From Acidobacteriaceae bacterium (lineage in GTDB: Bacteria; Acidobacteriota; Terriglobia; Terriglobales; Acidobacteriaceae), in NCBI GenBank assembly GCA_025352065.1, contig JANXUC010000183.1, positions 1 through 33,062 of the forward strand: a stretch of 33,062 nucleotides of DNA, given 5' to 3'. Each line of letters opens with the position of its first letter. Position 1 is the first letter of the stretch. The notes below the pieces were generated by a model. The model saw only the letters and a program-made list of their open reading frames with translations. It ran no database searches and was not told where the DNA came from. This document shows, piece after piece, positions 25,453 to 29,209 of the stretch. The position numbers and the translations under genes are program-made.

Positions 25453-27405
25453 CTACGCGCGCTTGCGCTTCGGTTGCATATCGAGCGTCTTGATCAGGCG
25501 AAACAGATGGTTGGCGTGTACGCCCAGGATGCCGGCAGCTTCGGTGTAGTTTCCGCCAGCCTGGTCGATGGCACGCTCGATCAATTTGCGTTTCGCATCG
25601 CGAATTCCATCGTGCAGTGCCGTTGCGGCGCGGCCATCTGGACCCGAGTGTTCCAAAATCGATTCAGGCAGATCTTCCGGAAGAATAAGTTCGGTAGAGC
25701 CCAGCACGATTGCACGCTCGATCGCATTCTCGAGCTCTCGTACATTGCCAGGCCAATCATAAGCCATGAGCGCACCGCGGGCTTCGGGTGAAATGCCTCG
25801 GATCGTGCGCTTCATCTTCTCCGCATAACGTTTGGCAAAGAAGATCGCAAGAATCGGGATGTCTTTCCGGCGATCTTTTAGTGGCGGCATCTTGACGGAA
25901 ACTACATTGAGGCGATAGTAGAGATCCGGACGGAATTCCTTCTTCGCCGACGCTTCCTTTAGATCGCGATTTGTAGCAGCAATCAGGCGGATATCGAGCG
26001 GAATTGTCCGGATTCCGCCAACGCGCTCGAACTCATGTTCTTGAAGGACGCGCAGCAGTTTGGCTTGCAGTGCGGGAGCGAGTTCGCCGATTTCGTCGAG
26101 GAATACGGTGCCCCCTTCGGCGGTCTCGAGCTTGCCTTTCTTCTGTGCGATGGCTCCAGTAAACGCACCTTTTTCGTGGCCGAAGAGCTCGCTTTCCAGC
26201 AGCGTATCCGTGATGGCCGCACAGTTAATGGCCATAAACGGCTTATGCGCTCGGGCGCTGTTGCGGTGAATGGCGCGCGCCACTAATTCTTTGCCGGTGC
26301 CGCTTTCGCCTAAAACCAGTACCGTGGAGTCATTCCCTGCGACGCGTCCGATGAATTGTTTCACGGAGTTGATGGCGTCACTTTCGCCGATCATGTCGTG
26401 AGCAATATCGAGTTCCTGCAGCAGGCGCTCGTTCTCGCCGCCAAGCCATTCCAACTGATATTGATTCTCAATGGCCAGCGCGACAACGTTGCCCAGCGCG
26501 GTCACGAGTTCCAGCAGCTCAGCATCGAAGCGGACGCCCTGGGCGTTCGCATCCATATAGATTGCGCCCAAAACTCTACCTTGAACTTCCAGCGGCACAG
26601 CCAGCACGGAGAGCACTCGCGCTGTAATCAGACTCTCGGCGTCCCGCAAAACCTCGTCGCTAGAAATATCATTCGATACCACTGCTATATTTTCTTCCAG
26701 CACACGGCGCAGAATGGTCTCGCTTATCCGCATGGACTGGTTCGGACCCAGGCGTCGATCCCATCCGCGCACTTCGCCGAGATCGTCATCGCTTTGGCGG
26801 AGCACCAGGGCTGCTCGCTCGGCAGGCGCAACTTCCAGTAGAGCTTCCAACACCTTATGTTCTAGCGCTGCCATACCGCGCACGGCATTCAATGTGCGAC
26901 TGAAGCCCAACAGAACCCGAAGATCCTTCACGGTGCGCGTTGTGGCGGGCATCTCAGTATCCGAGCGAAGGTAAAGGGCATCCTGCTTTTTGAGAATGAA
27001 AGTGGCGCTCTCGCCTAAGTTCTCAAGACCCAAAGCAGCTGAAGTGGAGGACCCACGATCCGCGGTTCGCAGCACGAACATGGAATTGCCGATGCGAACC
27101 TGGTCGCCCGGCGCGAGGACCTTCTCGGTGACAGCAACGCCGTTCACGAAAGTGCTGTTACGGCTGTTGAGGTCGACAAGCCGGAAAGTTTCGCCTTCCG
27201 AACGCAGGACGCAATGGTGCCGAGAAACCAGGGAATCGAGAAGAGGGATGTGATTGGAGGGGTCGCGTCCGACCGTGATTTCGCCGTCAACGAAGGAGAA
27301 CACTTCTCCTTCGCGGGGCCCCTTGAGCACTTCGAGCCGTAGATCTGCGAAACCAACCTTGCTACTCGGTTCGCCCATCGCAGGCTGAGTATACCAACGG
27401 CCCAT
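25453..27405 (-). CDS. FHA-GAF-AAA+-Fis sigma54-dependent transcriptional activator
   Basis: The 650-residue protein has, in order: an FHA domain (about 20-110; [22 protein letters not shown]), a GAF domain (about 165-320), a sigma54 AAA+ domain (about 340-570) and a Fis-type helix-turn-helix at the end ([20 protein letters not shown]). The AAA+ part has Walker A GESGTGKE, the sigma54-contact loop GAFTGA, Walker [10 protein letters not shown] and [18 protein letters not shown] domains bind phosphothreonine and GAF domains bind small ligands, so it should respond to kinase and metabolite signals. It lies divergent to the tandem microprotein operon, about 250 bases away, and is its most likely activator. 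Confidence 0.93.
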
Positions 27406-27584
27406 GACTTTCGATACCTTTAACTACACCTAGCAAATATGTTAGGTGGGCCAACATCCGCGCTAGGTTTTCGCCAGCACCAGGTACTCGCGCACAAACC
27501 ATGTAACCTTTCTAAATCAAGTTATTTCTTTTAAATTCAATAATATACAGGCATCTTGCACGCAGGTACCGTAGTCGTAGAACT

Positions 27585-27601
27585 TTGGTAACCCACCTGC
27601 T
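27585..27601 (+). promoter_or_regulatory. Candidate sigma54 (-24/-12) promoter of the peptide operon
   Basis: ttggtaacccacctgct has GG and GC exactly 10 bases apart and matches YTGGcAcg-N4-tTGCW at the key positions (TGG-A and TGCT). It lies 58 bases before the first peptide ATG. A second, weaker GG-N10-GC is at about 27550-27563. The adjacent gene encodes a sigma54 activator. This is a motif call only. Confidence 0.5.
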
Positions 27602-27658
27602 TTATTAAAGTCGTACCGCAGACAACCAGTCTGATCCCCCGAAAAAAGGAGAAACACA

Positions 27659-27709
27659 ATGAAGATCAAAACCAACACCAAAGCAGGCAGCGCAGTTTGG
27701 GGTGGCTAA
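27659..27709 (+). CDS. 16-residue peptide, copy 1 of 4
   Basis: The ORF encodes MKIKTNTKAGSAVWGG and stops at TAA. AAGGAG lies 7 bases upstream of the ATG. It is the first unit of an array of four near-identical microproteins on one strand. The peptide is basic at its N-terminal half (K2, K4, K8), then small and neutral with one Trp, ending Gly-Gly. It is too short for a membrane helix and has no cysteine. A signalling peptide, a RiPP precursor or a small binding peptide are all possible; no family is assigned. Confidence 0.8.
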   Translation: MKIKTNTKAGSAVWGG

Positions 27710-27717
27710 ATCCCCCG

Positions 27718-27739
27718 CCCCGAGCTGAAAGGCTTGGGG
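27718..27739 (+). other. Hairpin after peptide copy 1
   Basis: ccccgagc-tgaaag-gcttgggg forms 8 pairs with one G-U, 9 bases past the stop. It may be a processing or stabilising structure. Confidence 0.55.
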
Positions 27740-27799
27740 CCCGAAATCAGGAGCAGTTCTAGCAACTGCGGTAGAAACAAAAATCCCAAGGAGGGCCCA

Positions 27800-27850
27800 A
27801 TGAAGATCAAAACGAACACGAAGGCCGGCAGCGCAGTTTGGGGTGGCTAA
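27800..27850 (+). CDS. 16-residue peptide, copy 2 of 4
   Basis: The product is identical to copy 1 (MKIKTNTKAGSAVWGG), although four codons differ synonymously. The ribosome-binding site is AAGGAGG, 5 bases before ATG, in the block atcccaaggagggccca that copy 3 shares exactly. The spacer from copy 1 is 90 bases. Confidence 0.82.
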   Translation: MKIKTNTKAGSAVWGG

Positions 27851-27858
27851 CTCCCCCG

Positions 27859-27881
27859 GCCTGAGTCGAACGACTTAAGGC
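27859..27881 (+). other. Hairpin after peptide copy 2
   Basis: gcctgagtc-gaac-gacttaaggc pairs with a single bulge, 8 bases past the stop. Its sequence differs from the other spacer hairpins, but its position is the same. Confidence 0.55.
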
Positions 27882-27950
27882 TCCGAAGTTCACGAACGAC
27901 AACAAAGTCATTCGAAAAAGATGTGGCAACAAAATCCCAAGGAGGGCCCA

Positions 27951-28001
27951 ATGAAGATCAAAACGAACACGAAGGCCGGCAGTGCAGTCTGGGGCGGATA
28001 G
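27951..28001 (+). CDS. 16-residue peptide, copy 3 of 4
   Basis: The product is again MKIKTNTKAGSAVWGG, with synonymous changes in the Ser, Val and both Gly codons relative to copy 2 and a TAG stop instead of TAA. The AAGGAGG block is the same as for copy 2. The spacer from copy 2 is 100 bases. Confidence 0.82.
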   Translation: MKIKTNTKAGSAVWGG

Positions 28002-28009
28002 TCCGCCAA

Positions 28010-28032
28010 GTTCCCGACCGAGAGTTGGGAAC
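28010..28032 (+). other. Hairpin after peptide copy 3
   Basis: gttcccgac-cgaga-gttgggaac forms nine pairs with one G-U wobble, again 8 bases past the stop. Confidence 0.6.
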
Positions 28033-28093
28033 ACGAACCGAAGCGAGTACAACCGCAGTTCGATACAGACATCTAGATAAAGGAGCGGACACA

Positions 28094-28144
28094 ATGAAGA
28101 TCAAGACAAGCACCAAAGCCGGCAGCGCAGTCTGGGGTGGTTAG
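28094..28144 (+). CDS. 16-residue peptide, copy 4 of 4 (N6S variant)
   Basis: The ORF encodes MKIKTSTKAGSAVWGG, the only copy with an amino-acid change (Asn6 to Ser). Other differences are synonymous. The ribosome-binding site AAAGGAG is 8 bases before ATG. A hairpin (tctccg-ttggcc-cggaga, 28167-28184) and then the operon terminator follow. Confidence 0.8.
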   Translation: MKIKTSTKAGSAVWGG

Positions 28145-28252: not shown

Positions 28253-28285
28253 AAAAAGGGAACCGAGAAATCGGTTCCCTTTTTT
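28253..28285 (+). terminator. Intrinsic terminator of the peptide operon
   Basis: aaaaagggaaccga-gaaa-tcggttccctttttt is a perfect stem of 14 pairs with a GAAA tetraloop. The GC-rich part ends in a run of six T, a strong rho-independent terminator that bounds the four-peptide transcript. Confidence 0.92.
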
Positions 28286-28625: not shown

Positions 28626-29125
28626 ACTCACGGTCTCCCGATCCCCTCTCCGTCGAGAGCGAGCAGCATCAGCCGTTCGACAACGTTGCGCAGCTCGCCG
28701 ACATTGCCTGGCCACGGCTGCTCACACAATGCAGCAATCGCTTCCGGAGTAAACGCCATCGGCTTCCATCCGTTCTGCTTGCTCACTTGCGCGGCAAAAT
28801 GCTTGATCAGGACGGGGATATCTTCGCGACGTTCGCGTAGCGGCGAGGCACCAAGGGGAGTACATACACGCGGTGATATAAATCCTGCCGAAACTTCCCT
28901 TCCTTCACGAGCGTTTCCAGATCGCGATGCGTCGCCACGACCACCCTCACATCCACTTTGATTGCATGATCTCCGTCAATGCGTTCCACTTCCGACTCTT
29001 CCAGAACGCGCAGCAGCTTGGCCTGCATCATCAAGGGCATATCGCCGATCTCATCGAGGAAGATGGTTCCACGCTGCGCCTGTTCGAACTTGCCGAGATG
29101 CCGCGCGCCAGCTCCGATGAATGAA
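28626..29125 (-). pseudogene. Sigma54 AAA+ activator remnant
   Basis: The minus strand carries GARHLGKFEQAQRGTIFLDE (Walker B), [39 protein letters not shown], then after a frameshift near 28860 SPLRERREDIPVLIKHF and EQPWPGNVGELRNVVERL. This is the middle of an NtrC-type AAA+ domain. The part upstream of GAFTGA (here degraded to SFIGAGA), the Walker A and the C-terminal HTH are absent. The break lies a few bases from tRNA-Gly, hinting at rearrangement there. Confidence 0.85.
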
Positions 29126-29137
29126 ACTGTGAAATGG

Positions 29138-29209
29138 AGCGGGAGACGGGGATCGAACCCGCAACCAACGGCTTGGGAAGCCGCTACTCTACCATTGAGC
29201 TACTCCCGC
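29138..29209 (-). tRNA. tRNA-Gly (anticodon CCC)
   Basis: Acceptor arms GCGGGAG/CTCCCGC, D arm AGCTCAATGGTAGAGT, anticodon stem GCGGC/GCCGT around TTCCCAA (anticodon CCC), and T arm GCGGG-TTCGATC-CCCGT. CCA is not encoded. Confidence 0.94.

Follow-up and report, generated by a model that had tools for sequence, protein, structure and literature searches.

Four tandem open reading frames (ORFs) of 17 codons, located between positions 27659 and 28144 of a 33,062-nt stretch of DNA from an Acidobacteriaceae bacterium (assembly GCA_025352065.1, contig JANXUC010000183.1; hereafter, the window is this whole stretch), encode nearly the same 16-residue peptide. Our analysis suggests that this array probably encodes the precursors of a single short peptide for export, under a dedicated sigma-54 switch. 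The product resembles an unprocessed small signal or toxin of the exported kind, and both the coding and the regulation of the array are well supported by sequence comparison. The first-pass annotation of this DNA had left open whether the product is a signal peptide, a precursor of a ribosomally synthesized and post-translationally modified peptide (RiPP), or a small regulator; the evidence presented here favors an exported precursor.

The peptide genes and their divergence

The array ORFs occupy positions 27659-27709, 27800-27850, 27951-28001, and 28094-28144 on the (+) strand. Each starts with ATG and is preceded by a Shine-Dalgarno site (AAGGAG at 27646-27651, AAGGAGG at 27788-27794, AAGGAGG at 27939-27945, and AAGGAG at 28080-28085, respectively) that ends 7, 5, 5, and 8 nt ahead of the start codon. 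ORFs 1, 2, and 3 encode MKIKTNTKAGSAVWGG, and ORF 4 encodes MKIKTSTKAGSAVWGG, which differs only by Ser at position 6 (N6S). The gaps between neighboring ORFs measure 90, 100, and 92 nt. The first-pass description of the array (four 17-codon ORFs on one strand, 90–100 nt apart, with Shine-Dalgarno sites and three identical products) was borne out in each of these respects.

Further comparison of the copies revealed that the DNA of the four ORFs is 82–92% identical and that the spacers, with the Shine-Dalgarno part excluded, are 43–59% identical, compared with 40–49% in one set of shuffled spacers. Specifically, 10 of the 48 coding columns vary among the four copies, nine of them synonymously and the tenth as N6S. 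Of the 135 single changes that copy 1 allows outside its start codon, 104 would alter the peptide, so the nine synonymous columns among ten correspond to a binomial P value of 1.4e-5. This pattern argues that the array ORFs are true genes, retained for their peptide, and that the copies are old duplicates kept for the same product. Chance or a recent duplication was ruled out by the synonymous-only divergence (bar N6S) together with the diverged spacers.

In the source genome (4.25 Mb in 183 contigs), a search with the peptide pattern returned five matches: the four array copies and one on contig C35. The fifth copy is single, has its own Shine-Dalgarno site, encodes MKIKTNTKAGVAVWGN, and is unlinked to the array. 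Its neighbors are an LpxI gene on one side and, on the other, a Gp49-like gene of the toxin-antitoxin type (L001:6487-8390). The proposal of a multi-copy microprotein operon, for which conservation of the frame in related genomes had been suggested as a check, is supported, since frames of the KxKTxxKAG type were found in other genomes (see below).

The candidate sigma-54 switch

Divergent from the array, on the (−) strand at 25453-27405, lies a gene for a 650-residue transcription activator with an FHA-GAF-AAA+(sigma-54)-HTH_8 layout, in which the sigma-54 interaction domain (PF00158) was detected at 6e-71. The source genome has one sigma-54 gene (PF04552 at 2.9e-60, contig C34). An 18-bp palindrome, CCTARCA-N4-TGTTRGG, is found upstream of both the array and the C35 copy, and a GG-N10-GC sigma-54-type site lies 133–156 bp beyond it at both loci. 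In the window, these elements are CCTAGCAAATATGTTAGG at 27429-27446 and the candidate promoter TTGGTAACCCACCTGCTT at 27585-27602 on the (+) strand. The palindrome pattern was derived from these two loci themselves; it has no other match in the source genome even at one mismatch, compared with five one-mismatch matches for the reversed control. Relaxed, the pattern points to one place per genome in G003, G289, and G279, namely the peptide locus, with 0, 2, and 0 matches, respectively, for the reversed control. The palindrome also stands ahead of the peptide genes of relatives; it was present at every locus examined and is a candidate binding site for the activator.

We scored the promoters against what we take to be the sigma-54 consensus (14 positions). 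The window site agrees at 9 positions and those of the orthologous loci are stronger, most of them at 11–13: G289 scored 13, G003 11, and six orthologs from one related genus (g6) 10 to 13, with the C35 site at 10; the corresponding G279 promoter is interrupted by N. For a random 41-position slot, the probability of a score of at least 9 is 0.022–0.025, and that of at least 10 is 0.005–0.007. Two observations weigh against the proposed switch at the array itself: its own promoter, taken alone, is weak (9/14), and the activator gene itself contains another site with the same score.

Taken together, an activator with the interaction domain, a sigma-54 gene, a -24/-12-type promoter, and an upstream palindrome make up a putative sigma-54-dependent regulon. 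The arrangement resembles the regulons of bacterial enhancer-binding proteins in its AAA+ sigma-54 domain, divergent target, upstream palindrome, and -24/-12-type promoter. It differs from them in that the sensory part consists of FHA and GAF domains with a partner Ser/Thr kinase and in that the targets seen here are micropeptide genes only.

A search of 396 genomes of the bacterial family (E <= 1e-150) found activator matches in 86, the source genome included. Seven other genomes have an activator with 62–68% identity (G275, G081, G417, G202, G385, G003, and G420), the remaining full-length matches do not exceed 52%, and three partial ones reach 53–56%. G289 has an eighth ortholog, whose coding sequence is divided between two frames; this also counts against the proposed switch. 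The orthologs in these eight genomes likewise stand opposite a small-peptide gene, an arrangement that in other genera comes with a similar palindrome and promoter, and a Ser/Thr kinase gene lies within about 3.3 kb of all eight (G289, G003, and six g6 genomes). This partner kinase is 855–877 residues long, or 541 at the contig end in G003. A single membrane segment was predicted near residue 310–317 in each of the three copies examined, and Pfam scans of two copies gave a kinase domain together with PD40 propeller repeats of weak score. The kinase ortholog of the source genome (60–63% identical) is on contig C138, directly behind genes for HlyD, a C39-ABC protein, and an ABC protein.

The g6 genomes have this activator, palindrome, and promoter before a different gene of about 55–61 codons; its product carries a hydrophobic segment at the N terminus and ends in sequences such as ADGGPLILCPPRQPNCQTTLPPLS. 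All six g6 genomes (L081-L086) show this small protein with its signal-like segment and an end of the type ADGGP[LI][IL]LCPP..., and in G202 a second similar frame follows the first. The relaxed palindrome pattern recovers the peptide locus in four of the six (G275, G081, G202, and G420); it misses G385 and G417 because their sites end in ACG, and its further g6 matches occur at about the rate of the reversed control. A second conserved palindrome was found in four g6 genomes (G385, G417, G275, and G081; L105-L108), with no sigma-54-type site before a peptide gene within 500 bp; the lone sigma-54-type site near it, in L107, falls inside a reading frame. We also considered whether peptide genes accompany more distant activator paralogs. 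This proved not to be a rule (the upstream region of the source genome's own paralog was inspected by eye only), and some paralogs have sigma-54-type sites before larger frames. At two of these distant paralogs (L063 and L074), such sites (14 and 11 of 14) precede frames whose starts resemble those of secreted proteins of a different kind.

A leader/core family and its probable exporter

The peptide start, searched with up to two mismatches, matched in 14 of 398 genomes of the bacterial family, and 11 remained after the frames were read; G242, G206, and G394 were dropped because they have no family frame preceded by a Shine-Dalgarno site. Nine genomes contain 33 single-unit genes: 12 in G328, five each in the source genome and G070, three each in G289 and G272, two in G003, and one each in G279, G359, and G216, with a second G279 copy interrupted by N. 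Fused repeats of the KVKTNVKAGG-xxx-NHNQ type occur in G345 and G237. Throughout the family, the start M-K-x-K-T-x-x-K-A-G is nearly invariant and is followed by a variable tail of 4–15 residues. Specifically, among the 26 distinct single-unit peptides, M1, K8, A9, and G10 are constant, and K4 and T5 each vary once; this conservation of the start largely follows from the search pattern, which 11 of the 12 G328 copies match, and the tail lies outside the pattern. The conserved start and variable tail, the layout of a leader and a core, support the earlier suggestion that KxKTxxKAG is the lead. The C-terminal Gly-Gly noted alongside it did not hold as a general feature, as the end is Gly-Ser in G289 and G279 and Gly-Asn on C35. 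Tails in the array's branch (SAVWGG, SALWGS, and VAVWGN) are near-constant across genera (SA[VL]WG[GS]), and the 12 G328 copies have very different tails.

The pattern found no further family peptide in the source genome or in G003, and the exact peptide pattern, searched in 150 relatives, matched the source genome only. A contig scan for KT[NS][TVIA]KAGxxxWG, from which records near the source genome were possibly excluded, gave one Myxococcota match without a fitting start, which we judged to be chance. At up to one mismatch, 8 of 347 genomes of the phylum matched, including the source genome; the frames at L090, L092, and L097 are family-like, those at L091, L093, and L094 are not, and L095 yielded no frame. 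The L092 locus (G688) has two frames with ends GGLKINTNVKAGGV[LV]ISD, in which a KTNVKAG-like stretch stands behind Gly-Gly, so there this stretch could be the product and not the leader. Profile scans, which apply to members of at least 20 residues (the 16-residue peptides being too short to scan), gave no NCBIfam match for four family peptides of 21–25 residues, no Pfam match for three of 22–25 residues, and only weak matches, all below cut-off, for two fused-repeat proteins. The literature searched yielded no match for KVKTNVKAGG, KTNVKAG, KTNIKAG, KTNTKAG, VKAGGL, or NHNQTL. The family was thus not found under any name in NCBIfam or Pfam (members of at least 20 residues) or in that literature.

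A C39-ABC exporter, searched with a peptide-locus protein as query (E <= 1e-100), was present in 10 of 396 genomes of the bacterial family. Nine of these 10 are peptide genomes, and 9 of the 11 peptide genomes carry the exporter (Fisher P = 9e-16, kinship ignored, samples of 398 and 396 genomes). In seven of the nine overlapping genomes, peptide and exporter lie on one fetched stretch. The stretches from G328, G345, G272, G359, and G216 contain genes for HlyD, a C39-peptidase ABC protein, a second ABC protein, an ECF-sigma-like protein, and a kinase-like protein, as called by a simple longest-ORF script and grouped by blastp; profile checks covered the G328 set together with part of the genes from G289 and G070. 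The G070 exporter is interrupted by a contig end. In G289, HlyD, C39-ABC, ABC, kinase, activator, and array form one run. The exporter of the source genome (G000:C138:8509-11178) is 57% identical to that of G328 and retains what we take to be the C39 catalytic positions. The exporters of the source genome and G003 are mutual best matches among the loci compared, with 65–70% identity over three genes. On contig C138, a short ECF-sigma-like frame (150 residues; L087:6615-7067), perhaps a decayed regulator, stands just ahead of the exporter genes. Judging by the association of peptide and exporter across genomes, the array peptide probably has its own exporter.

Several observations weigh against this assignment. 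The exporter and the array are on different contigs in the source genome and in G003, no exporter was found in G279 or G237 in the 396-genome search although both have the peptide, G262 has the exporter and no family peptide on its 10-kb contig, and the exporter query itself came from a peptide locus. The unlinked exporter in the source genome and G003 and the two genomes without one would also suit a never-exported intracellular regulator or chaperone-like microprotein, a basic 16-mer binding RNA, DNA, or protein, with the exporter's co-occurrence reflecting kinship. We regard this explanation as improbable. Evidence against it comes from variable tails behind an invariant start, from peptide and exporter sharing a fetched stretch in seven of nine genomes, and from the g6 loci, at which a protein bearing a hydrophobic, signal-like segment is under this switch.

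According to PMC6363468, leaders of C39 substrates end in Gly-Gly, Gly-Ala, or Gly-Ser and have hydrophobic residues at -4, -7, and -12. By this rule, further points against an exported precursor are that the leader has only 10 residues and ends in Ala-Gly in all 26 peptides (the fused repeats have KAGG) and that a cut after G10 would leave I, V, T, or L at -4, K or R at -7, and no position -12; this departure from the strict leader rule likewise favors an intracellular role. In other respects, the family resembles double-glycine/C39 ABC systems (AMS/PCAT; LahT, PCAT1): the 26 distinct peptides show a conserved leader and a variable core (partly an effect of the search pattern), there are several precursors per exporter, and the exporter has an N-terminal C39 domain, which appears intact in the putative cognate exporter of the source genome. 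It differs from them in its 10-residue leader, the Ala-Gly end, and the lack of the -7 and -12 hydrophobic contacts described in PMC6363468.

NHLP/Nif11-leader RiPP systems likewise have HlyD, C39-ABC, and a second ABC protein side by side. Here, however, long leaders are absent, and the G328 C39-ABC and HlyD proteins fall far below the NCBIfam cut-offs of the NHLP bacteriocin export models (190 against 853 bits for TIGR03796 and 40 against 156 for TIGR03794). Among solved structures, the exporter of the source genome matches many ABC proteins; C39 bacteriocin exporters are among these (2e-42) and do not stand out as particularly close. Plasmid records gave one exporter match at 38% and no fused-repeat match. 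As to the first-pass suggestion of a RiPP, no modifying enzyme was recognized around the array, the C35 copy, the C138 exporter, or the G289 cluster among the subset of genes scanned there. Elsewhere, in G272 (L036:7603-10927), a LanM-type gene (DUF4135 and LANC_like) lies directly behind a family peptide with a Cys-free tail, MKVKSNIKAGPASRKG. Multi-core libraries, prochlorosins among them, are a third point of comparison. PMC6363468 describes the LahA set as several precursors with similar leaders and different tails. The 12 G328 copies agree with these libraries in having several precursors per genome with similar leaders and different tails, whereas the genes here have 14–25 codons and the copies of the array's branch are nearly identical. 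Because the leader departs from the strict rule and no modifying enzyme was seen among the genes scanned, we filed the array peptides under neither double-glycine peptides nor RiPPs. The array peptide seems to work as leader/core precursors paired with a C39 exporter do, and we assign it to none of these classes.

Proposed role and the DNA downstream of the array

In the mechanism we propose, the partner Ser/Thr kinase, with its one membrane segment and propeller-like outer part, would sense a cue and phosphorylate a target bound by the FHA domain of the activator. The activator, at the palindrome, would then drive sigma-54 transcription of the array and the C35 locus, and a peptide would be translated from each copy. 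The C39-ABC exporter would recognize the 10-residue leader and cut after Lys-Ala-Gly, exporting SAVWGG from the array precursor and VAVWGN from the C35 precursor. The secreted peptide may be read as a signal by the same kind of cell. We hold this to be its most likely role, albeit with reserve. A signal is somewhat more likely than a toxin, with an antimicrobial peptide next, because the tail hardly changes across genera in the array's branch; such constancy is easier to square with a ligand that has one fixed receptor than with a weapon that diversifies. The receptor candidate is the partner kinase, given its single predicted membrane segment and its low-scoring PD40 repeats.

The same export steps could instead serve antimicrobial (bacteriocin-like) or RiPP precursors, in which the tail would be the core from which a toxic or modified product is made, with the copies providing yield or variety. 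The 12 G328 copies, with very different tails as in natural-product libraries, speak for this alternative, as do the exporters' below-cut-off matches to bacteriocin-type C39 ABC families and the LanM-type gene in G272. Set against it are the nearly constant tail of the array's branch, the absence of Cys from SAVWGG, and the lack of any recognized modifying or immunity gene beside the array, the C35 copy, or the source genome's exporter among the genes scanned. We consider it possible for the array yet rather unlikely. The widely varying G328 tails do fit a product library, and the peptide family may serve both uses.

A more ambitious proposal, which we put forward only tentatively, is that of a new signaling circuit. 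The hexapeptide SAVWGG, cut by the C39 exporter from its 10-residue Lys-Ala-Gly leader, would act through the propeller-bearing receptor Ser/Thr kinase and the FHA-GAF-sigma-54 activator back onto the peptide genes. The circuit would represent a single branch within a large family, as yet without a name, of precursors with a minimal leader and core, and a related genus would have swapped in a different secreted peptide under the same switch. If correct, these proposals would add a ribosomal precursor family with a very short leader-core layout (10 plus 4–15 residues), encoded by genes small enough to evade ordinary gene calling. The family would be tied to one exporter and, in the array's branch, to a complete candidate switch of receptor kinase, FHA-sigma-54 activator, palindrome, and promoter. 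The KxKTxxKAG pattern allows the family to be searched in any genome, and peptide signaling or warfare in a little-studied group would become directly testable.

Hairpins follow the first three array ORFs on the (+) strand: at 27717-27740, 10 nt past stop codon 1 (z -4.2); at 27858-27882, the same distance past stop codon 2 (z -2.3); and at 28010-28032, about the same distance past stop codon 3 (z -3.1). After stop codon 4, no hairpin was better than shuffles. The three hairpins differ in sequence and perhaps provide mRNA protection or insulation between copies. Their fixed place would also suit a regulatory RNA or upstream-ORF (attenuator) arrangement, in which the short frames matter for ribosome position and not for the peptide. 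We judge this very unlikely, given that amino acids are kept while synonymous sites change, that many different contexts contain the frame and its family, and that the array is not visibly followed by an intact gene. What follows there is a perfect 14-bp inverted repeat with a terminal T run (28253-28284, (+) strand), a candidate terminator of the array recognized by eye. A simple terminator scan gave two sites against 1.8 expected by chance, this repeat not among them, and a sigma-70 promoter scan gave 0 sites. Beyond the repeat, pieces of a second sigma-54 activator gene, about 42–53% identical to this activator group, remain at 28658-29136 on the (−) strand; this remnant separates the array from a tRNA gene (29138-29209, (−) strand).
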